From NCBI RefSeq assembly GCF_030708075.1, contig NZ_CP117982.1:2683302-2747301 (forward strand): 64,000 nt of DNA. Direction: 5' to 3'. Each line of letters opens with the position of its first letter. Position 1 is the first letter of the stretch. This document shows, piece by piece, positions 3,555 through 50,308 of this stretch. Made by a program: the position numbers and the translations under genes. Origin of the DNA: Candidatus Epulonipiscium viviparus (GTDB lineage Bacteria > Bacillota > Clostridia > Lachnospirales > Cellulosilyticaceae). The notes below the pieces were generated by a model. That model worked only from the letters and a program-made list of their open reading frames with translations, was not told where the DNA came from and made no database searches.

Positions 3555-4237
3555 GTTAATGACCTGTCGAATTTGTAGCCGATGCCAGTTACGGTTTTAA
3601 TAAATTTAGGACTTTTGGTATCGAGCTCAATTTTTTTGCGAATGTTTTTGATGTGAACATCAATGGTTCTGTCGAAGCCGTCAAAATCGATGCCCATAAC
3701 AGCATCTATGAGTTGCTCGCGGCTAAAGACTCTGCCGGGAGATTTGGCGAGATGGTATAAAATGTCAAATTCATTAGGTGTGAGAACGATATCTTTGCCA
3801 TAGGAAATAACCATTCTGGTTTCGGGATAAATCTTGAGATTGCCTTTATCGAATATACATAATTCTTCGTTGTTTTCACGTTCTTTGCGAGTTTTTAGAG
3901 CATTAACGCGGGCAACAATTTCGCGAGGGCTTATAGGTTTTACAAGATATTCGTCAGCACCTAAATTAAAGCCGCCCACTTTATTATCTAGAGTACCCTT
4001 GGCGCTAATCATAAAAATATATACGTTGGAGATTTCTCGCATTTTTTTGCAGATTTCTTCGCCTTGCATTCCTGGTAACATTAAATCTAATAACACTACA
4101 TCGATCTTTTCGTCTAAAAATACTTTGAGCCCTTCTTCACCGCTATAGCAAGTGAATACTCTATATTTTTCGTTTTCTAAATATTTAGCAACAATATCTG
4201 CGACTCTTTTTTCGTCCTCTATTATTAAAATGTTCAT
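3551..4237 (-). CDS. OmpR/PhoB-family response regulator
   Basis: The 228-residue protein has a receiver domain with acidic pocket E7-D8, phospho-acceptor Asp51 in VVLLDLMLPG and the conserved Lys in LVKPIS, followed by a winged-helix DNA-binding domain (VLTPNEFDILYHLAK to GIGYKF). It is the first gene of the pair with the kinase at 2166-3554, which overlaps its stop codon by 4 nt. The ATG has an AAAGGAG site 11 nt upstream. Targets are unknown; the upstream chromate-transporter genes are separated from it by a terminator. Confidence 0.93.
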   Translation of the reverse strand: MNILIIEDEKRVADIVAKYLENEKYRVFTCYSGEEGLKVFLDEKIDVVLLDLMLPGMQGEEICKKMREISNVYIFMISAKGTLDNKVGGFNLGADEYLVKPISPREIVARVNALKTRKERENNEELCIFDKGNLKIYPETRMVISYGKDIVLTPNEFDILYHLAKSPGRVFSREQLIDAVMGIDFDGFDRTIDVHIKNIRKKIELDTKSPKFIKTVTGIGYKFDRSLT

Positions 4238-4310
4238 AGTTGATCAGCTCCTTTTATTGCTAGTATATCCAAAACTTATGAAGATAAATTAAAAAATGCA
4301 TGAAAAATTG

Positions 4311-4342
4311 AAAAAGTCGCCTGCAAGTGAATGCAAACGACT
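4311..4342 (-). terminator. Rho-independent terminator after the chromate transporter genes
   Basis: On the minus strand AGTCGTTTGCA pairs with TGCAGGCGACT (two G-U pairs) around a short loop, followed by TTTTT. It separates the chr genes from the two-component system. Confidence 0.85.
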
Positions 4343-4351
4343 CATTAAGTA

Positions 4352-4912
4352 TTATACGATTAAAATTCCTAATATGGCTCCAACAGCGATGTACACAATA
4401 GCATGTTTTTTGAATTTCTCTATTGCAAAAAAGAAAAGTAACCCTAGTAATATGTTGAATACAGTGGCAAGATATGCTGTAGATGCCCCGGTGATTAGAT
4501 CTTCAATGCCGAATGCGATCATGGCAACAGAAATTCCGGCCGCACCGATGATTCCAGCCGCAACGGGACGTATGCCATAGAACGCTGCTTTTACATATGA
4601 GTTAGATTTAAATTTGTGGAATATTTTGGCAACGATTACAATGATGATGATAGAAGGAGTGATAAGTCCAAGAACCGCAATGATGCCTCCCAAAACGCCG
4701 GCAGTAGAGTAACCCATAAAGGTCGCCGCGTTTACCCCCACCGCGCCAGGCGTAGATTCGGCAACAGCGATGATGTTAATTAAATCTTCTTGAGTGATCC
4801 AATGATACATATCTATGAGCTCTTCGAGAAATGGAATGGTAGCAAGGCCGCCACCAACAGCAAATAAGCCAATCTTGAAAAACTCTGCATATAATAGAAG
4901 TAATAGATTCAT
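4352..4912 (-). CDS. Chromate transporter, short-chain CHR subunit
   Basis: This 186-residue integral membrane protein holds one CHR domain with the FFKIG-x-FAVGGGLA-type glycine motif at the N-terminus and a second conserved stretch AESTPGAVGVNAATFMGY. It overlaps the other CHR gene (4909-5448) by 4 nt. Short-chain CHR proteins act as heterodimers made from adjacent genes (family knowledge), and these two fit that pattern. Members export chromate or carry related anions, but the real substrate in an anaerobe is often unproven. Confidence 0.88.
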   Translation of the reverse strand: MNLLLLLYAEFFKIGLFAVGGGLATIPFLEELIDMYHWITQEDLINIIAVAESTPGAVGVNAATFMGYSTAGVLGGIIAVLGLITPSIIIIVIVAKIFHKFKSNSYVKAAFYGIRPVAAGIIGAAGISVAMIAFGIEDLITGASTAYLATVFNILLGLLFFFAIEKFKKHAIVYIAVGAILGILIV

Positions 4913-5448
4913 TTCTTAGCCACCTCTCTACCGAAAATTAGTCCGCATACTGCGCCGATCACAATTAGTATTATTGGAGATGGTGACCACACTGCCATTA
5001 CAATTAAGCTTGCAACAAATAGAATTTTTGTGGTTAAATCCAGCAAGGATTTTTTTGAAAGGGCAACAACACCGCTCGCAATTAGGGCAACAACAACAAT
5101 CCTGATTCCAAAAAACGCTTCTTGTATTATACTTTGCTCCATAAATAAGTCAAAGACAGAAGCAATGAGTGTGATAATAACAATGGAAGGAGCCACAACA
5201 CCCAATGTCGCAACAATGGCACCGATAACTTTGCCTCGTTTGTATCCTATAAATGTGGCAGTGTTTACTGCAATGATGCCGGGTGTCATTTGTCCTATAG
5301 CATAGTAATCCAAAACTTCATCTTCTTCTACCCATCCTCTTTTATTTACAAGTTCGGCTTGAATTATTGGCATCATAGCATATCCCCCGCCAAAAGTTAA
5401 AGCTCCAATTTTAAAAAATGCAAAAAAAAGATCTAATAATTGTTTCAT
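4909..5448 (-). CDS. Chromate transporter, short-chain CHR subunit
   Basis: This is the first gene of the CHR pair, 179 residues from ATG 5448, chosen because GGGGAGG lies 4 nt upstream and because family members begin with MK-x-LLDLFFAFFKIG; the longer frame to 5481 lacks a ribosome site. It shows the TFGGGYAMMPII motif and GQMTPGIIAVNTATFIGY. It is translationally coupled to the partner at 4352-4912 by a 4-nt overlap. A small hairpin (CCACA-ACTA-TGTGG, 5464-5477) lies just upstream of its ribosome site. The pair probably belongs to the ispE-gntR transcript, since no terminator is visible between. Confidence 0.88.
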   Translation of the reverse strand: MKQLLDLFFAFFKIGALTFGGGYAMMPIIQAELVNKRGWVEEDEVLDYYAIGQMTPGIIAVNTATFIGYKRGKVIGAIVATLGVVAPSIVIITLIASVFDLFMEQSIIQEAFFGIRIVVVALIASGVVALSKKSLLDLTTKILFVASLIVMAVWSPSPIILIVIGAVCGLIFGREVAKK

Positions 5449-5484
5449 AATTCCTCCCCATAGACCACATAGTTGTGGCAATTT

Positions 5485-6552
5485 TTAATTAGAATTATTT
5501 TCTACTGATACTATAATCTCTATATTTTGATTATTTTCTAGGCCAATTCTGTATAAATGATATGGCAGCGAAAACATGTTGTATCCGTCTTCTTCGTTAG
5601 AAATATATACTGTGGCTTGTTTGTCAAATGATGTAGATATAGCGGGTTGATGATCTAGAATATTGAGAAATTGCTCATATACTGAAAGTTCGCTGGTGTG
5701 ATTGGTGTGTATATCGCCAACGCTAACGCCGGGAGTGAGTGCTAAAAATATGAGCTTCTTTGCGGAATTAATACCAAAACGAATCGAAAAAATTCCGGGA
5801 CTTTTTAGCTCTTTAACAAGTTTCCTCGTTGTGCGTTCTATTTTGGCGTAGAGAGTTTTTGTTATGTTGGGAGGAATATGGATTAACGTTTTGCCTGTGG
5901 AGCCTTCTTCTTCCTCTTCGCAAATTGGATACAATACGATATTCTTTTTGTGATCGACAACGGCAGTGATGCTAAGAATTTGGTGGTAGTGCTCCAATTT
6001 TTCTAATATAACTATTGAAGTGCGATGCCTGAGAGGTTGCTTTAATTCTTGGAGCCCCTTGGCGTCTTCTATTTCGAACACATCCACATCGGTATCGTTA
6101 ATTGAATCATTTTGAGAATATAAATAACATTTTAACGGAAACGTTATTTCGGGATTGCTAAGACCCGCAACAGTGGTAATTAGAAAATGCTCTGGAATAT
6201 CGATTTTTAGACTAGTTGCAAGTGTTAGCTGATTTTTGCGACTAATTAAATAGAGATATGCGTCAAGTGTTGGATAAATAATGACATTTTTTGGTAATTT
6301 ATTTTTGATGTTTGTAATTAGATTGGTAATGCAAATTATAGCATCGCATCTAAGTGACAAACGTTCAAGATTTTGTGAATTAAATTCCCCAACTAGGCTA
6401 TATGTTGCGTAGTCGCTTGAAATATTAAAATTTTCTTGATCGAGTAAAACAGTTTCTATACCTCGCTTTTTTGCTTCTTTGCAAATCATTAAGCTTGTGA
6501 GATTTGATCCAATGATACCTATCGTATTAATTTTTTTGTTAGTGTTCATCAT
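5485..6552 (-). CDS. PurK-like ATP-grasp protein, probably catalytically inactive
   Basis: The start is ATG 6552 (an ATG-ATG doublet behind AAAGAAAGG), giving 355 residues. The N-terminus is the PurK-type Rossmann-like fold (IGIIGSNLTSLMICKEAKKRG), and the middle matches ATP-grasp blocks of N5-carboxyaminoimidazole ribonucleotide synthase (SIVILEKLEHYHQILSIT, then VLYPICEEEEEG). Two hallmark elements are missing: the glycine-rich ATP lid GGYDGKG is replaced by YSQNDSIND, and the Mg-binding motif NEIAPRPHNSGH is replaced by LALTPGVSVGDI. It sits between gntR and the CHR genes with no other purine genes nearby. I infer a divergent PurK paralogue that has lost carboxylase activity; a regulatory or binding role is possible. 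Confidence 0.6.
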   Translation of the reverse strand: MMNTNKKINTIGIIGSNLTSLMICKEAKKRGIETVLLDQENFNISSDYATYSLVGEFNSQNLERLSLRCDAIICITNLITNIKNKLPKNVIIYPTLDAYLYLISRKNQLTLATSLKIDIPEHFLITTVAGLSNPEITFPLKCYLYSQNDSINDTDVDVFEIEDAKGLQELKQPLRHRTSIVILEKLEHYHQILSITAVVDHKKNIVLYPICEEEEEGSTGKTLIHIPPNITKTLYAKIERTTRKLVKELKSPGIFSIRFGINSAKKLIFLALTPGVSVGDIHTNHTSELSVYEQFLNILDHQPAISTSFDKQATVYISNEEDGYNMFSLPYHLYRIGLENNQNIEIIVSVENNSN

Positions 6553-16795: not shown

Positions 16796-17734
16796 ATGGA
16801 TTGTATAGAATTTAAGATAGAAACAACAACTGCAGCGGTGGAAGCGATCAGTTATTTTATTGCAGATACATTGGAGGGCGGAGTGGAGATTTGCGATCCC
16901 AAAGATGCCATAAATCAGGACAAGACCCAAACTTGGTATGATTTTATTGATGAAAGTTTACTAGATGCTGACATGAATACAGTTTTTGTGAAAGCATATT
17001 TTAATAAAGGAATAAATATAGAAGAATATAAGGAAAAAATTTCAGCTGAGTTAGAACATATAAAAGAGTTTTTGGATGTTGGCGCCGCGCAAATTATTGT
17101 GAGCGAAATTCCAGAAGAAAAATGGGCAAACGAGTGGAAGAAGTATTATAAGACTTTTAACATTACAGATAAAATAGTGATCAAACCATCGTGGTTGGCA
17201 TATGATGTTGCAGGCGATGAAATTGTGATAGAAATGGATCCGGGAATGGCATTTGGCTCGGGCACTCATGAAACTACATCGATGTGTGTTCAGTTATTAG
17301 AAAAATATCTAAAAAAAAGCAATAGAGTACTGGATGTAGGCACTGGTAGTGGAATTCTCGGAATTGTTGCCGCAAAACTTGGGGCATCAGTTTTGGGAGT
17401 GGATATCGATCCGATGTCGGTTAAAGTTGCTGTAGAAAATGTCGCGATCAATGGTGTTGCAGATAATATGGCGGTTGTGCAAGGAGATTTGCTGGAAGTC
17501 GTTGCGGAAAAGGCAGATATTGTCATTTCGAATATAATAGCAGATGTGATAATTGTATTGGCAGCGCAGGTAAGGCAAGTGTTGAAACCGGGTGGAGTGT
17601 GGATTGCTTCAGGGATTATTGATGAGAAAAAAGCAGCGGTGCTGAAGGCAGTTGAAAAGCATGGCTGGGAGGTTGTAGAAGTAACAGAAAAAAATGAATG
17701 GGTTGCGTTGGCAATGCGTGATGTTAATGCCTAA
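16796..17734 (+). CDS. prmA: Ribosomal protein L11 methyltransferase
   Basis: PrmA trimethylates ribosomal protein L11 with S-adenosylmethionine. The 312-residue protein has the N-terminal L11-recognition domain and a Rossmann methyltransferase domain with GMAFGSGTHETT (about residue 150), motif I LDVGTGSGILGI and the catalytic-region motif IVISNIIADVI (NPPY-like). dnaJ-prmA-rsmE is a classic Firmicute order. Its last 77 nt lie within the first copy of the 184-bp tandem duplication, but the reading frame is complete and ends at the normal position. Confidence 0.95.
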   Translation: MDCIEFKIETTTAAVEAISYFIADTLEGGVEICDPKDAINQDKTQTWYDFIDESLLDADMNTVFVKAYFNKGINIEEYKEKISAELEHIKEFLDVGAAQIIVSEIPEEKWANEWKKYYKTFNITDKIVIKPSWLAYDVAGDEIVIEMDPGMAFGSGTHETTSMCVQLLEKYLKKSNRVLDVGTGSGILGIVAAKLGASVLGVDIDPMSVKVAVENVAINGVADNMAVVQGDLLEVVAEKADIVISNIIADVIIVLAAQVRQVLKPGGVWIASGIIDEKKAAVLKAVEKHGWEVVEVTEKNEWVALAMRDVNA

Positions 17735-18025
17735 ATATTTTGTAGATAAGTCTAATATAAAAGATGCGACGATCGTGATAGAAGATAGAAATTTTCATCA
17801 TATTAAAAATGTTATGCGAGCCAAGATAGGTGATCAATTGCAGCATGGCTGGGAGGTTGTAGAAGTAACAGAAAAAAATGAATGGGTTGCGTTGGCAATG
17901 CGTGATGTTAATGCCTAAATATTTTGTAGATAAGTCTAATATAAAAGATGCGACGATCGTGATAGAAGATAGAAATTTTCATCATATTAAAAATGTTATG
18001 CGAGCCAAGATAGGTGATCAATTGC
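17658..18025 (+). repeat. Perfect 184-bp tandem duplication across the prmA-rsmE junction
   Basis: Positions 17658-17841 and 17842-18025 are identical base for base, copy next to copy, with no shared bases extending beyond the unit at the joint. Each copy holds the last 77 nt of prmA and the first 105-120 nt of rsmE. Both genes still have an intact full-length frame. Perfect identity means either a very recent duplication or an assembly join of two overlapping contig ends. Confidence 0.97.
17721..17918 (+). pseudogene. RsmE-PrmA hybrid reading frame created by the duplication
   Basis: The rsmE start in the first copy reads about 38 RsmE residues, crosses the joint at 17841, and continues into the PrmA C-terminal residues in the PrmA frame (ending WVALAMRDVNA), 65 residues in all. 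It keeps the natural overlap with the intact rsmE start at 17905. It lacks the SPOUT domain and is not expected to function. Confidence 0.8.
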
Positions 18026-18648
18026 TTGTGGGTGATAAAGAAAACGGAATGTACAAATGTTTTGTTGCAGAGATTTCGGCAAATTTTATTACTGCAAATA
18101 TAGTGGAGGTCTTTGCGGCAGATACCGAGCCTGCAGTAGATATAGTATTGTTTGCGCCTCTTATTAAAGGAGACAAGATGGAATGGGTTATTCAAAAAGC
18201 AGTGGAAATCGGGATCGCGAAGATTATACCGATATATACGCAACACTGCGTGGTGAAGCTGGAGTCTGAGAAGAAGATTGCCTCGAAAGTTGAAAGGTGG
18301 AACAAAATAGCGGAGTCGGCAGCAAAGCAGTCGGGGCGTGGCATAACCGTCGCGGTGGCAGACCCAATGAAATTTGCTGATGCGATGGAGTTTGCTGATG
18401 CCGCGCTGGATGTTATTGCAATACCATATGAAAAAGAAGATACGCAAACATTTAAGAAAATGCTAAGAGAAAATCAGTTTACAAGCCTGGGGATTTTTGT
18501 TGGGCCAGAGGGAGGGTTTGCAGCAGAAGAGATTGCTATTGCAGAAAAATTCGGAGCAATGGTAGTCACGTTGGGTAAAAGAATTTTGAGAAGTGAGACA
18601 GCTAGTATTGTGGCCACCGCGCTAGCTGTCCATGAAACTAATAATTGA
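17905..18648 (+). CDS. rsmE: 16S rRNA (uracil1498-N3)-methyltransferase
   Basis: RsmE methylates U1498 of 16S rRNA. The 247-residue product starts at ATG 17905 (or ATG 17911), overlapping the duplicated prmA end. It shows an N-terminal PUA-like domain (FHHIKNVMRAKIGDQL) and a C-terminal SPOUT knot with IFVGPEGGFAAEEI and LGKRILRSETAS, both diagnostic. The more upstream in-frame ATG at 17878 lies inside duplicated prmA sequence and is not the natural start. A UUCG terminator follows. Confidence 0.94.
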   Translation: MLMPKYFVDKSNIKDATIVIEDRNFHHIKNVMRAKIGDQLLVGDKENGMYKCFVAEISANFITANIVEVFAADTEPAVDIVLFAPLIKGDKMEWVIQKAVEIGIAKIIPIYTQHCVVKLESEKKIASKVERWNKIAESAAKQSGRGITVAVADPMKFADAMEFADAALDVIAIPYEKEDTQTFKKMLRENQFTSLGIFVGPEGGFAAEEIAIAEKFGAMVVTLGKRILRSETASIVATALAVHETNN

Positions 18649-18654
18649 GTTGCG

Positions 18655-18674
18655 CCTTCTTCGGAAGGTTTTTT
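18655..18674 (+). terminator. Rho-independent terminator of rsmE
   Basis: CCTTC-TTCG-GAAGG, a stem closed by a stable UUCG tetraloop, followed by six T. Confidence 0.9.
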
Positions 18675-18745
18675 CTATAAATGACTTTATTTTTGATTTG
18701 TTTTAGAGTATAATCTAAGAAAATAATATTTAAAAGGAGTAGCTG

Positions 18746-20101
18746 ATGATACACAAATTTAAGTTTGATGGGCTTAATATTGTAATGGATATAAATAGTG
18801 GCGCAATTCATGTTGTTGATGATATTGTTTATGATCTTGTTTTAGAAATACCAAAATTAACCGCTGATGAAATTACGGTTAAGTATGCAGCGATTTATGA
18901 CGAAAAATATATAAGAGAGGCGATAGATGAGATCAACGAATTAATATCCGAACAAATTCTTTATACCGAGGATACATACGAAAATTTGATTCCAGCTTTT
19001 CTTGATAGAAAGCCAATTGTTAAAGCGCTTTGTCTTCATGTTGCCCATGACTGCAATTTAGGCTGCAAATATTGCTTTGCAGGAGAAGGGGAGTATCATG
19101 GTCCCAGAGGGCTAATGAGCGTTGAAGTTGGAAAGCGTGCTATTGACTTTTTGATTGAGAGCTCTGGAGTTCGTACTAATTTGGAGGTAGATTTTTTTGG
19201 TGGAGAACCGCTGATGAATTTTAAGGTAGTTCGTGAATTGGTTGACTACGCAAACTCTCGTGCAGAACAAACAAATAAGAAATTTAGATTTACTCTTACT
19301 ACTAATGGGGTGTTATTAAATGATCAGATAATCGATTTTCTCAATGAATATATGGATAATGTGGTTTTGAGCCTCGATGGAAGGCCAGAAATTAATGATC
19401 AGATGCGTCCGACCGCAAATGGCAAGGGCAGCTACGATATTATTTTACCAAAATTTAAAAAGCTTGTAGAAAAAAGAGGTGGCAAAAAATATTATATCCG
19501 CGGAACATTTACTCACAAAAACCTAGATTTTGCAAAGGATGTGTTGCATATAGCAGAGTTGGGGTTTAATGAAGTTTCTGTGGAGCCTGTTGTTGCACCT
19601 AGAAGTAAAGATTATGCGATCAAAGAAGATGATATTGCGTTATTGTGCCAAGAATATGAAATATTAGCAAAAGAAATGCTGAAAAGATATAAACAAGACG
19701 GGGAGGTTTTTAATTTCTTTCATTTTAATATAGATCTTACGGGAGGTCCCTGTGTATATAAACGCTTGTCTGGCTGCGGGTCTGGAACAGAGTATTTGGC
19801 TGTGACGCCAGAAGGAAATCTATATCCGTGTCATCAGTTTGTGGGTATAGATGAATTTGCGATGGGCAATGTTTGGGACGGAGTGACTAATCTTGATCGC
19901 AGAAGTGAGTTTGGATCTTGTAATGTTTATCAAAAAGATGAATGTAAAAAATGTTTTGCAAAATTTTTCTGTAGTGGAGGGTGCGCGGCAAATTCATACA
20001 ACTTCAATGGCAATATATTGGGGACATATGAGATTGGCTGCCAACTACAAAAAAGTCGCCTCGAAAATGCAATAGGGTTAATTGCAAGCAAACAACAATA
20101 G
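18746..20101 (+). CDS. scfB: Radical SAM SCIFF-peptide thioether maturase
   Basis: The 451-residue protein belongs to the SPASM-type radical SAM maturases that form Cys thioether cross-links in the SCIFF peptide (six cysteines in forty-five residues), near universal in Clostridia. It has an N-terminal peptide-binding domain, the radical SAM cluster motif CNLGCKYC (about residue 104), the FFGGEPLMNF loop, and a SPASM region with CGSGTEYLAVTPEGNLYPC and a C-terminal set CKKCFAKFFCSGGC plus a later Cys for two auxiliary Fe-S clusters. AAAGGAG precedes the ATG. The following secD/secF is the usual neighbourhood, but the SCIFF peptide gene, normally just upstream, is missing: only 97 nt separate it from rsmE. 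Confidence 0.92.
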   Translation: MIHKFKFDGLNIVMDINSGAIHVVDDIVYDLVLEIPKLTADEITVKYAAIYDEKYIREAIDEINELISEQILYTEDTYENLIPAFLDRKPIVKALCLHVAHDCNLGCKYCFAGEGEYHGPRGLMSVEVGKRAIDFLIESSGVRTNLEVDFFGGEPLMNFKVVRELVDYANSRAEQTNKKFRFTLTTNGVLLNDQIIDFLNEYMDNVVLSLDGRPEINDQMRPTANGKGSYDIILPKFKKLVEKRGGKKYYIRGTFTHKNLDFAKDVLHIAELGFNEVSVEPVVAPRSKDYAIKEDDIALLCQEYEILAKEMLKRYKQDGEVFNFFHFNIDLTGGPCVYKRLSGCGSGTEYLAVTPEGNLYPCHQFVGIDEFAMGNVWDGVTNLDRRSEFGSCNVYQKDECKKCFAKFFCSGGCAANSYNFNGNILGTYEIGCQLQKSRLENAIGLIASKQQ

Positions 20102-20176
20102 TACCTTGACGAAGCTCTTATAATTAAAAGGTAATGATACTTTATTTAAGGCAAACTACAAAAGAAAGAGAGGATA

Positions 20177-21433
20177 GTGAGGAGCGATATCCTTGCTGAA
20201 AAAATTATGAAATCTATTTTAAAAATAGTAGGCGTAGTTTTTGCAATTATCATAACTGTCTATCTGGCATATTTTGGATTGGGTGAAAGAAATGTATTTT
20301 CTTATAATCACATAAACCTAGGATTAGACTTGCGTGGTGGGGTTAGTATTGTTTATGAAGTAGAAGGAGAAACGCCACAAGCATCAGATATGGCAGCAGC
20401 AGTTGCGATGATTCAAGTGCGACTCGATAGAGAAAATTATACTGAAGCAGAAGTTGCAATAGAAGGTGATAGGCGAATTCGTGTTAATATTCCTGGAGTA
20501 GAAGATCCGCAAGAAGCAATTAACAGCATCGGAGCAACAGCGTTACTCACATTCGAAGATGAAAATGGCAATGTCGTTTTAGAAGGAAAAAATATCAAGA
20601 GTGCGGTATTTCAACTCGCTGATATGGGAATGGGAAATGAAGCCGTTGTTGCAATTAAATTAGATGATATAGGAACAGAAGCGTTTAAAAAAGCTACTGA
20701 AGAAAACATCGGAAAGCCTATTATAATTAAATTGGATGGAGAAATTATCAGTGCGCCAACAGTAAACGAAGCTATTAGAAACGGTGAGTCTGTGATTTCG
20801 GGGTCATTTACAGAGCAGTCAGCAGCTCAGCTAGCAGATCGTATAGAAGCTGGTTCGTTGCCGTTTGCGTTAATTCCGGTATCATCAAGTGGCGTAGGCG
20901 CAAAGCTAGGTATGGACGCATTTAACTCAAGTTTACAAGCTGCGGTAGTGGGATTCATTATAGTACTTATCTTTATGGCTTGTGTATATAGATTGAGTGG
21001 CATTGTTGCAGATATCGCTCTTACGCTATATGTGTCTTTGGTTGTTATTATATTAAGTTTGATAGAAGCCACGTTGACATTGCCAGGTATTGCGGGAATT
21101 ATTTTGTCGATTGGTATGGCAGTGGATGCAAATGTTATCATATTTACAAGAATTAAAGAAGAAATTAATTCTGGAAAAACAGTGCGCTCTGCAGTAGACA
21201 GCGGATTTAATAAGGCATTGAGTGGAATTGTTGATGGGAATGTTACGACTTTGATAGCGGCGTTTGTTTTATATATGCTAGGGTCTGGAATTATAAAAAG
21301 CTTTGCAACAACGCTAGGTATTGGTATCGTACTTTCTATGTTTACAGCTCTTGTCGTTACAAGAATTTTGCTTAGATCATTTGTTGCAGCAGGATTACAA
21401 AATCCAGTGTTATATGGAGGAACAAAGCGATGA
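20177..21433 (+). CDS. secD: Protein translocase subunit SecD
   Basis: SecD works with SecF to pull exported proteins through SecYEG using the proton gradient. Visible are one N-terminal membrane helix, the P1 head with LGLDLRGGVSIVYEV, and five C-terminal helices with the RND signature (GIAGIILSIGMAVDANVIIF). The start is uncertain: GTG 20177 has GAGAGG close upstream, while ATG 20207 (MKSILKIVG) has no ribosome site; about 418 or 408 residues. The large P1 domain is reduced relative to proteobacterial SecD, usual in Firmicutes. It overlaps secF by 4 nt. Confidence 0.95.
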   Translation: MRSDILAEKIMKSILKIVGVVFAIIITVYLAYFGLGERNVFSYNHINLGLDLRGGVSIVYEVEGETPQASDMAAAVAMIQVRLDRENYTEAEVAIEGDRRIRVNIPGVEDPQEAINSIGATALLTFEDENGNVVLEGKNIKSAVFQLADMGMGNEAVVAIKLDDIGTEAFKKATEENIGKPIIIKLDGEIISAPTVNEAIRNGESVISGSFTEQSAAQLADRIEAGSLPFALIPVSSSGVGAKLGMDAFNSSLQAAVVGFIIVLIFMACVYRLSGIVADIALTLYVSLVVIILSLIEATLTLPGIAGIILSIGMAVDANVIIFTRIKEEINSGKTVRSAVDSGFNKALSGIVDGNVTTLIAAFVLYMLGSGIIKSFATTLGIGIVLSMFTALVVTRILLRSFVAAGLQNPVLYGGTKR

Positions 21434-22332
21434 ACTATATACAAAATCGAAAAATCTTTTTTTCAATTTCCTTGATATTGATCGCGATATGCTTTGCGGC
21501 TATGGGTATAAATTATGTTGGTGGTAGAGGTTTGTTAAACTATGATATCGAGTTTAGTGGTGGTTCTATTTTGCATTTAGACCTTATGACAGATTTTAAT
21601 GTAGAAACAGAAATTATGCCACTGGTGATAGAATATTTGGGAGATGATTCAGCGGTAATTCAGTTGGTTCCAGATACGCATCAAATAATGATTACAACTA
21701 AGACTACAGATGCGACAATGAGAACAGAATTTGTAAAACAGGTACAGAAAGAATTAAACCTAACAGGAAATATTATTTTGGCGGAAGATTCTGTATCACC
21801 AACAATTAGTACAGAGCTTCAAGCAAATGCCATGTATGCGATTGTGTTGGGATCAATTTTGATGTTAATATATATTTGGGTGCGTTTTAAAGACTTTAAA
21901 TTTGGAGCTGCAGCAGTTGTGGCGCTAGTCCATGATGTTTTGATTATGTTATTCGTATATGCAGTCTTTAGAGTGCCTATTAATAATTCGTTTATAGCGG
22001 CAATTCTTACAATTATAGGGTATTCTATCAACGATACAATAATAGTTTTTGATAGAATAAGAGAAAATAGAAGAGTAATTGGTGGTTCAGACGAAGAGGT
22101 TATAAATAAAAGTATCAGCCAAACTTTGACACGTTCGATAAATACTTCGATAACAACATTGATAATGGTGGCATTGTTAAACATTTGCGGTACTGCATCT
22201 GTTAGGGAATTTGCATTTCCATTAGTAATAGGTGTTATTTCTGGAACGTATTCTTCTATATTTATAGCAAGCCCGGTTTGGTTTGAAATGAGAAAAATTG
22301 CAAAGCGAATGAGAAAAAAAGCAACAACATAA
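21430..22332 (+). CDS. secF: Protein translocase subunit SecF
   Basis: This is the partner of SecD, 300 residues with six membrane helices. It shows the N-terminal FSGGSILHLD block and the conserved ALVHDVLIMLFVY and IGYSINDTIIVFDRIREN motifs, ending with a basic tail RMRKKA. The ATG overlaps the secD stop codon, so translation is coupled. A GH18 protein gene follows 16 nt later and is probably on the same transcript. Confidence 0.95.
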   Translation: MNYIQNRKIFFSISLILIAICFAAMGINYVGGRGLLNYDIEFSGGSILHLDLMTDFNVETEIMPLVIEYLGDDSAVIQLVPDTHQIMITTKTTDATMRTEFVKQVQKELNLTGNIILAEDSVSPTISTELQANAMYAIVLGSILMLIYIWVRFKDFKFGAAAVVALVHDVLIMLFVYAVFRVPINNSFIAAILTIIGYSINDTIIVFDRIRENRRVIGGSDEEVINKSISQTLTRSINTSITTLIMVALLNICGTASVREFAFPLVIGVISGTYSSIFIASPVWFEMRKIAKRMRKKATT

Positions 22333-49301: not shown

Positions 49302-49976
49302 ATGAAAAATTATACAGAAAATGAAATTGAAAAAAGTATTTATACGTATCAGTCTGTAATCTTATTAGATCCCAATATGCGTATAAAATTAATTGATGAG
49401 AACACTACTTATGGTGTTAAACTTGCAAACTGGCAAGAAAACAATTTGCTGCTAGAACTTCGTCAAACCAATATCAATCTTAACTTGTCTAAAAAGCATA
49501 CTATTAATATGCTAACAAGCCATTCTACTTTTGTTGCGAATGTTTCGATTGTAAAAAAGATTCCGCAAGACAAATCTACTTTTTATATGGCACAAATTAT
49601 TTCGCCTATTCATCAAAAAAGACAGAGAAACCATTTTAGGCAAGAGGCAACGGTGCCGGTAACATTGATTGTTATTGCAGAAAAAAATTCTAAGGTTAAG
49701 CCGCCACCACCAATCAAAGGTATTACTATTGATATCTCTGCAGGTGGATTGAAGTTTACTAGTATAACAAAAATTGTTCCTCCATTAAATGTATACATAA
49801 ACTTTAGTTTTCATAATCTGCGTCTTACTCTAAAGGGAAGAATTTTGGAACACTTCGAGGAAGTTGATACGCATCAATTTATATATAGAGTGGCGTTTAA
49901 AGATATTGATACAGAAACACAGCAGAAATTAGAGAAAAATATTTTGGAATATGGCTCATCAAGGCGTTATAAGTGA
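49302..49976 (+). CDS. PilZ-domain (YcgR-like) c-di-GMP receptor
   Basis: The 224-residue second PilZ protein of the island lacks the long N-terminal coiled coil of the first. It has the YcgR-type beta domain and a PilZ domain with RxxxR in RQRNHFRQEA (RNHFR) and DISAGGLKF. The two proteins are paralogues, most alike around the ISPIHxKxxRxHFR stretch. AAAGGGGG lies upstream of ATG 49302. Its last 106 nt are inside the 201-bp tandem duplication; the gene itself ends normally. Confidence 0.9.
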   Translation: MKNYTENEIEKSIYTYQSVILLDPNMRIKLIDENTTYGVKLANWQENNLLLELRQTNINLNLSKKHTINMLTSHSTFVANVSIVKKIPQDKSTFYMAQIISPIHQKRQRNHFRQEATVPVTLIVIAEKNSKVKPPPPIKGITIDISAGGLKFTSITKIVPPLNVYINFSFHNLRLTLKGRILEHFEEVDTHQFIYRVAFKDIDTETQQKLEKNILEYGSSRRYK

Positions 49977-50272
49977 AACTATTGCTATGTCATAAGAGCT
50001 ATAAACATACAAAGAACTGTTTTATAGTTTTGCCGCAACGTTTTTACTTGCTGCAAAAACAACAAGGAGCAGCATCAATTTATATATAGAGTGGCGTTTA
50101 AAGATATTGATACAGAAACACAGCAGAAATTAGAGAAAAATATTTTGGAATATGGCTCATCAAGGCGTTATAAGTGAAACTATTGCTATGTCATAAGAGC
50201 TATAAACATACAAAGAACTGTTTTATAGTTTTGCCGCAACGTTTTTACTTGCTGCAAAAACAACAAGGAGCA
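49871..50272 (+). repeat. Perfect 201-bp tandem duplication after the second PilZ gene
   Basis: Positions 49871-50071 and 50072-50272 are identical, with one further shared base. Each unit holds the last 106 nt of the PilZ gene plus 95 nt of intergenic DNA. The second copy carries a start-less PilZ tail (50072-50177). This repeat makes up most of the 332-nt gene-free stretch 49977-50308, which otherwise holds only the hairpin GTTTTGCCGCAA/TTGCTGCAAAAAC in each copy and a palindrome ATTTGC-A-GCAAAT at 50287-50299. Confidence 0.97.
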
Positions 50273-50308
50273 GTTTATTCCTTGCATTTGCAGCAAATAT
50301 AAATTTGT

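Follow-up and report, generated by a model that had tools for sequence, protein, structure and literature searches.

The maturase locus in the window

The stretch of DNA analyzed here, 64,000 nucleotides in length (the window), comes from Candidatus Epulonipiscium viviparus, a giant bacterium of the gut, and carries scfB, a gene for a SCIFF peptide maturase of the radical SAM/SPASM type. On the chromosome, a single contig of 3,282,261 bases, the gene lies at 2702050-2703381. In a profile search the encoded protein of 451 amino acids (N-terminus MIHKFKFDG) matched TIGR03974 with 714 bits (cut-off 425) over positions 1-448; against NF040492 (not_ScfB), the model of a related orphan maturase, it reached 603 bits and stayed under the cut-off of 855. 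The protein is homologous to CteB over its entire length, and alignment with CteB (PDB 5WGG) revealed conservation of the C-terminal SPASM cysteines. Features of the locus are listed below in window coordinates.

17911-18648, plus strand: rsmE (TIGR00046), the new upstream neighbor of scfB in E. viviparus; different genes occupy this place in EpuloA2
18654-18675, plus strand: terminator-like hairpin with a T run that closes rsmE, in the 97-nt gap
18709-18714, plus strand: TATAAT, possible -10 box of scfB without a matching -35 element, seen by eye and not returned by the promoter scan
18734-18739, plus strand: AAGGAG, ribosome-binding site of scfB, seen by eye
18746-20101, plus strand: scfB (TIGR03974; match to CteB, 5WGG)
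19052-19075, plus strand: radical SAM motif C103-x3-C107-x2-C110, CNLGCKYC, aligned with CNLRCKYC of CteB
20177-21433, plus strand: secD (TIGR01129), relocated with scfB as judged by synteny
21430-22332, plus strand: secF (TIGR00966), relocated with scfB as judged by synteny

These assignments agree with the original prediction of a complete maturase, SPASM cysteines included, that is followed by secD and secF. The range given there, 18649-20176, comprises the gene together with the gaps on both sides. Neither the 97-nt gap between rsmE and scfB (18649-18745) nor the 75-nt gap between scfB and secD holds a SCIFF peptide gene, as had also been proposed, so that E. viviparus lacks the usual layout, in which the peptide gene immediately precedes that of the maturase. 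Alignment of the regions upstream of scfB between lineages yielded no convincing conservation beyond the ribosome-binding site and the start codon. A promoter scan returned no plausible sigma-70 match ahead of either scfB or the peptide gene described below.

A distant SCIFF peptide gene

Searching the whole genome with TIGR03973 retrieved a sole SCIFF gene, which lies outside the window on the minus strand of the same chromosome (G000:C1:475136-475264). It scored 86.6 bits (cut-off 50), or 88.3 bits when scored as protein, and encodes a peptide of 46 amino acids with a GTG start, VKHIKTLNTKNFKKSVQKGGCGECQTSCQSACKTSCTVGNQTCEQK. The distance between peptide and maturase genes is ∼1.05 Mb if the contig is circular, and 2.2 Mb via the other arc. 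The original prediction had allowed for a peptide that is encoded elsewhere, that was lost, or that was replaced by another substrate. The search bore out the first of these options; because a normal, textbook SCIFF gene is found elsewhere in the genome, the other two fall, and the maturase is no longer a candidate for an orphan enzyme that acts on a new substrate.

The closest known systems are CteA-CteB (thermocellin, Clostridium thermocellum; PDB 5WGG, 5WHY) and Tte1186a-Tte1186 (Caldanaerobacter subterraneus). Like CteA and Tte1186a, the E. viviparus peptide has six cysteines, all of which are present, and it retains Cys32, Thr34 and Thr37, the residues reported in the cross-links of these two peptides (PMC8326336). 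It differs from both systems in the distance that separates it from its maturase. Residues 18-41 are invariant in an alignment of eight family members that includes both split and adjacent pairs. In the one pair compared, E. viviparus and EpuloA2, the peptide genes differ by 18 synonymous and 4 nonsynonymous changes over 45 codons; the gene thus looks constrained, as expected if it is still in use.

A terminator-like hairpin, GCCAGTAGC-loop-GCTACTGGC, is kept behind the peptide gene in E. viviparus and EpuloA2, and a TATAAT-like box was seen by eye ahead of the gene in the genus and its relatives. With its own -10 box and terminator, the peptide gene looks like a separate transcription unit whose product could be supplied in trans, so that the split would disrupt no obligatory operon.

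Synteny and the separation of the two genes

In most other genera examined in the family and the order, the genes are arranged as (tgt-yajC)-(PHP, opposite strand)-SCIFF-scfB-secD-secF. Niameybacter massiliensis (L085) and Cellulosilyticum ruminicola (L092), members of the same family, share with E. viviparus the peptide core, the maturase and the succession of scfB by secD-secF, but in them the peptide gene directly precedes scfB, most often separated from it by a terminator-like hairpin. In E. viviparus the peptide gene is divergent from PHP at a distance of ∼2.2 kb, with tgt-yajC at 5-6 kb, and is now bordered by a two-component system and an RND efflux system. In a further assembly of the genus, G002, no two-component system was seen at the peptide locus and the peptide gene is even closer to PHP. 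The maturase side retains secD, secF, a GH18 gene and an amidase gene; upstream of scfB lie dnaK-dnaJ-prmA-rsmE in E. viviparus and different genes in the sister lineage EpuloA2. Since the peptide gene keeps its ancestral neighbors PHP, yajC and tgt while the genes upstream of scfB vary, we conclude that the scfB-secD-secF block moved and the peptide gene stayed. The relocation considered in the original prediction is thus correct as regards the separation of the pair, and wrong as regards the peptide gene as the partner that moved.

The same separation was seen in other assemblies. ScfB of the window is 100% identical (99-100% depending on the tool) to that of E. viviparus morphotype B, NZ_ABEQ01000039.3, which comes from the draft genome described in PMC3416734. 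This draft contig (L082), ∼0.45% divergent from the window, shows an identical rsmE-97 nt-scfB junction, and the peptide locus of the draft (L081) has the same context as in the window's assembly. The two genes of EpuloA2 (G003) are found on different contigs, each well inside its contig. Two assemblies are apparent counter-cases to the pairing: G001 has a maturase gene ∼270 nt from a contig end, and no peptide was found in that genome; in G002 the peptide is present, but scfB is represented by 3' ends alone, on a contig that passes into odd sequence. In both, the maturase contig thus ends or turns odd at that place.

Taken together, E. viviparus very probably has a SCIFF (ranthipeptide) system of the ordinary kind, with two separate genes that act in trans, as far as can be judged from sequence. 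ScfB would most likely bind the leader of the peptide encoded ∼1.05 Mb away and then install putative Cys-Thr thioether cross-links; in a ranthipeptide, such thioethers link Cys to a carbon other than the alpha carbon. The locus was probably split by rearrangement in an ancestor within the genus, and we infer a single event, older than the divergence of E. viviparus and EpuloA2. The break would have fallen behind the terminator that belongs to the peptide gene and ahead of scfB; the peptide gene would have remained by tgt-yajC-PHP, and the scfB-secD-secF block would have gone, in this genome to a site behind dnaK-dnaJ-prmA-rsmE.

Several alternatives were weighed against this explanation. An assembly error at the rsmE-scfB junction, with a normal layout in reality, is hardly conceivable: a perfect 184-bp tandem duplication lies nearby in the window's assembly and not in the draft, but the draft reads through the same junction, which is therefore no single-assembly error, and it also has the same peptide context; EpuloA2 is split as well. 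The misassembly considered in the original prediction can thus be set aside. That the peptide gene relocated rather than the maturase gene is very unlikely. The scfB-secD-secF genes stand together as in the relatives, as this alternative would have it; yet the peptide gene has kept not only PHP, yajC and tgt but also its ancestral divergent orientation to PHP, and it is the upstream side of scfB that differs between E. viviparus and EpuloA2. It is highly improbable, too, that the maturase has switched to another, unrecognized substrate and that the distant SCIFF gene is a relic. Lost adjacency, and nothing more, speaks for a switch of substrate; against it stand the unchanged core of the peptide, the constraint apparent in its gene, the full-length, SCIFF-type score of the maturase, and the co-occurrence of the peptide with the maturase in every maturase-bearing genome of the class sample described below (126/126).

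A few further features of these assemblies were recorded. The 184-bp duplication (window 17658-18025) spans the prmA/rsmE junction, leaves prmA and rsmE both intact and creates a 74-aa hybrid frame (17694-17918); the repeat is single-copy in the draft. A second perfect tandem duplication, of 201 bp, lies at window 49871-50273 and is apparently represented by one, slightly different copy in the draft. Either case is a strain difference or an assembly artefact. On G002:C56 (L182), within 1-1085, the first ∼880 nt do not look bacterial and are perhaps host DNA; they are followed, ahead of secD, by the scfB 3' end in three tandem copies, which have diverged (83-87% alike). The secD gene of the Nuni2H_MBin003 bin (L176, G001:C66:3214-4443) has one in-frame TGA, which reflects a sequencing error or a broken gene. 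EpuloA2 (L187, G003:C34) encodes a second, ScfB-like radical SAM/SPASM protein at 4187-5545 (TIGR03974, 267 bits, under the cut-off), with a 44-aa frame containing five cysteines upstream (5629-5763) and an ABC transporter downstream; this locus is perhaps another peptide system.

Split pairs in the class

To describe how frequently the pair is split, an even sample of the class comprising 147 genomes was used, in which a maturase was counted if it scored above the cut-off. The peptide was present in all 126 maturase-bearing genomes, and two further genomes had the peptide alone. The two genes were adjacent in 103 of the 126, separated in 21, and at contig ends or unclear in 2. The separated pairs are spread over nine families; 3 of them are on one contig and 18 on different contigs, and in these 18 both genes lie >1 kb away from the relevant contig ends. 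With 21 of 126 genomes split, separation is not rare in the class, and adjacency is no strict requirement for a SCIFF system. A terminator-like hairpin follows the peptide gene in 36 of 85 adjacent loci, compared with 0.13 expected from dinucleotide shuffles, the loci being related and not independent. A literature search that mostly did not extend to subscription journals turned up no description of split SCIFF loci.

The neighborhoods of split pairs were analyzed by BLAST with E. viviparus proteins over ∼5 kb on each side, so that the resulting counts are lower bounds. The peptide gene lies near tgt, yajC, secD or secF in at least 15 of the 21 split genomes; by the same lower-bound count, secD-secF stand beside the maturase gene in only one, that of E. 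viviparus. In the split pairs of families f27, f34, f42, f48, f57, f61, f66 and f75 both genes are present and distant, as in E. viviparus, with the peptide gene mostly near tgt, yajC, secD or secF. These families differ from Epulonipiscium in that their maturase gene departed without secD-secF.

With the system recognized as a known one with separated genes, the recurrence of the split and the attachment of the peptide gene to the Sec locus are what remains, and are mildly interesting. Because the maturase gene leaves and the peptide gene stays near these genes in 15 of the 21 splits, one may ask whether function, beyond inherited gene order, holds the peptide gene at the Sec accessory locus (tgt-yajC-secDF). 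We consider this unlikely; if true, the retention could mean a tie of SCIFF to Sec-dependent export. The attachment may be mere gene-order inertia.

The splits also bear on genome mining that looks for precursors near maturases, for which 500 bp was used in the training set of PMC5300114. Judged by the class sample, mining limited to the vicinity of the maturase would overlook about one SCIFF pair in six; for a lone SCIFF maturase, the whole genome should thus be checked for the peptide first. In one further locus (L115), in a bin labeled Muribaculum, the SCIFF gene lies 1.86 kb upstream of scfB and does not adjoin it; this bin is likely mislabeled, because a SCIFF locus of the Clostridia type is at odds with that name.
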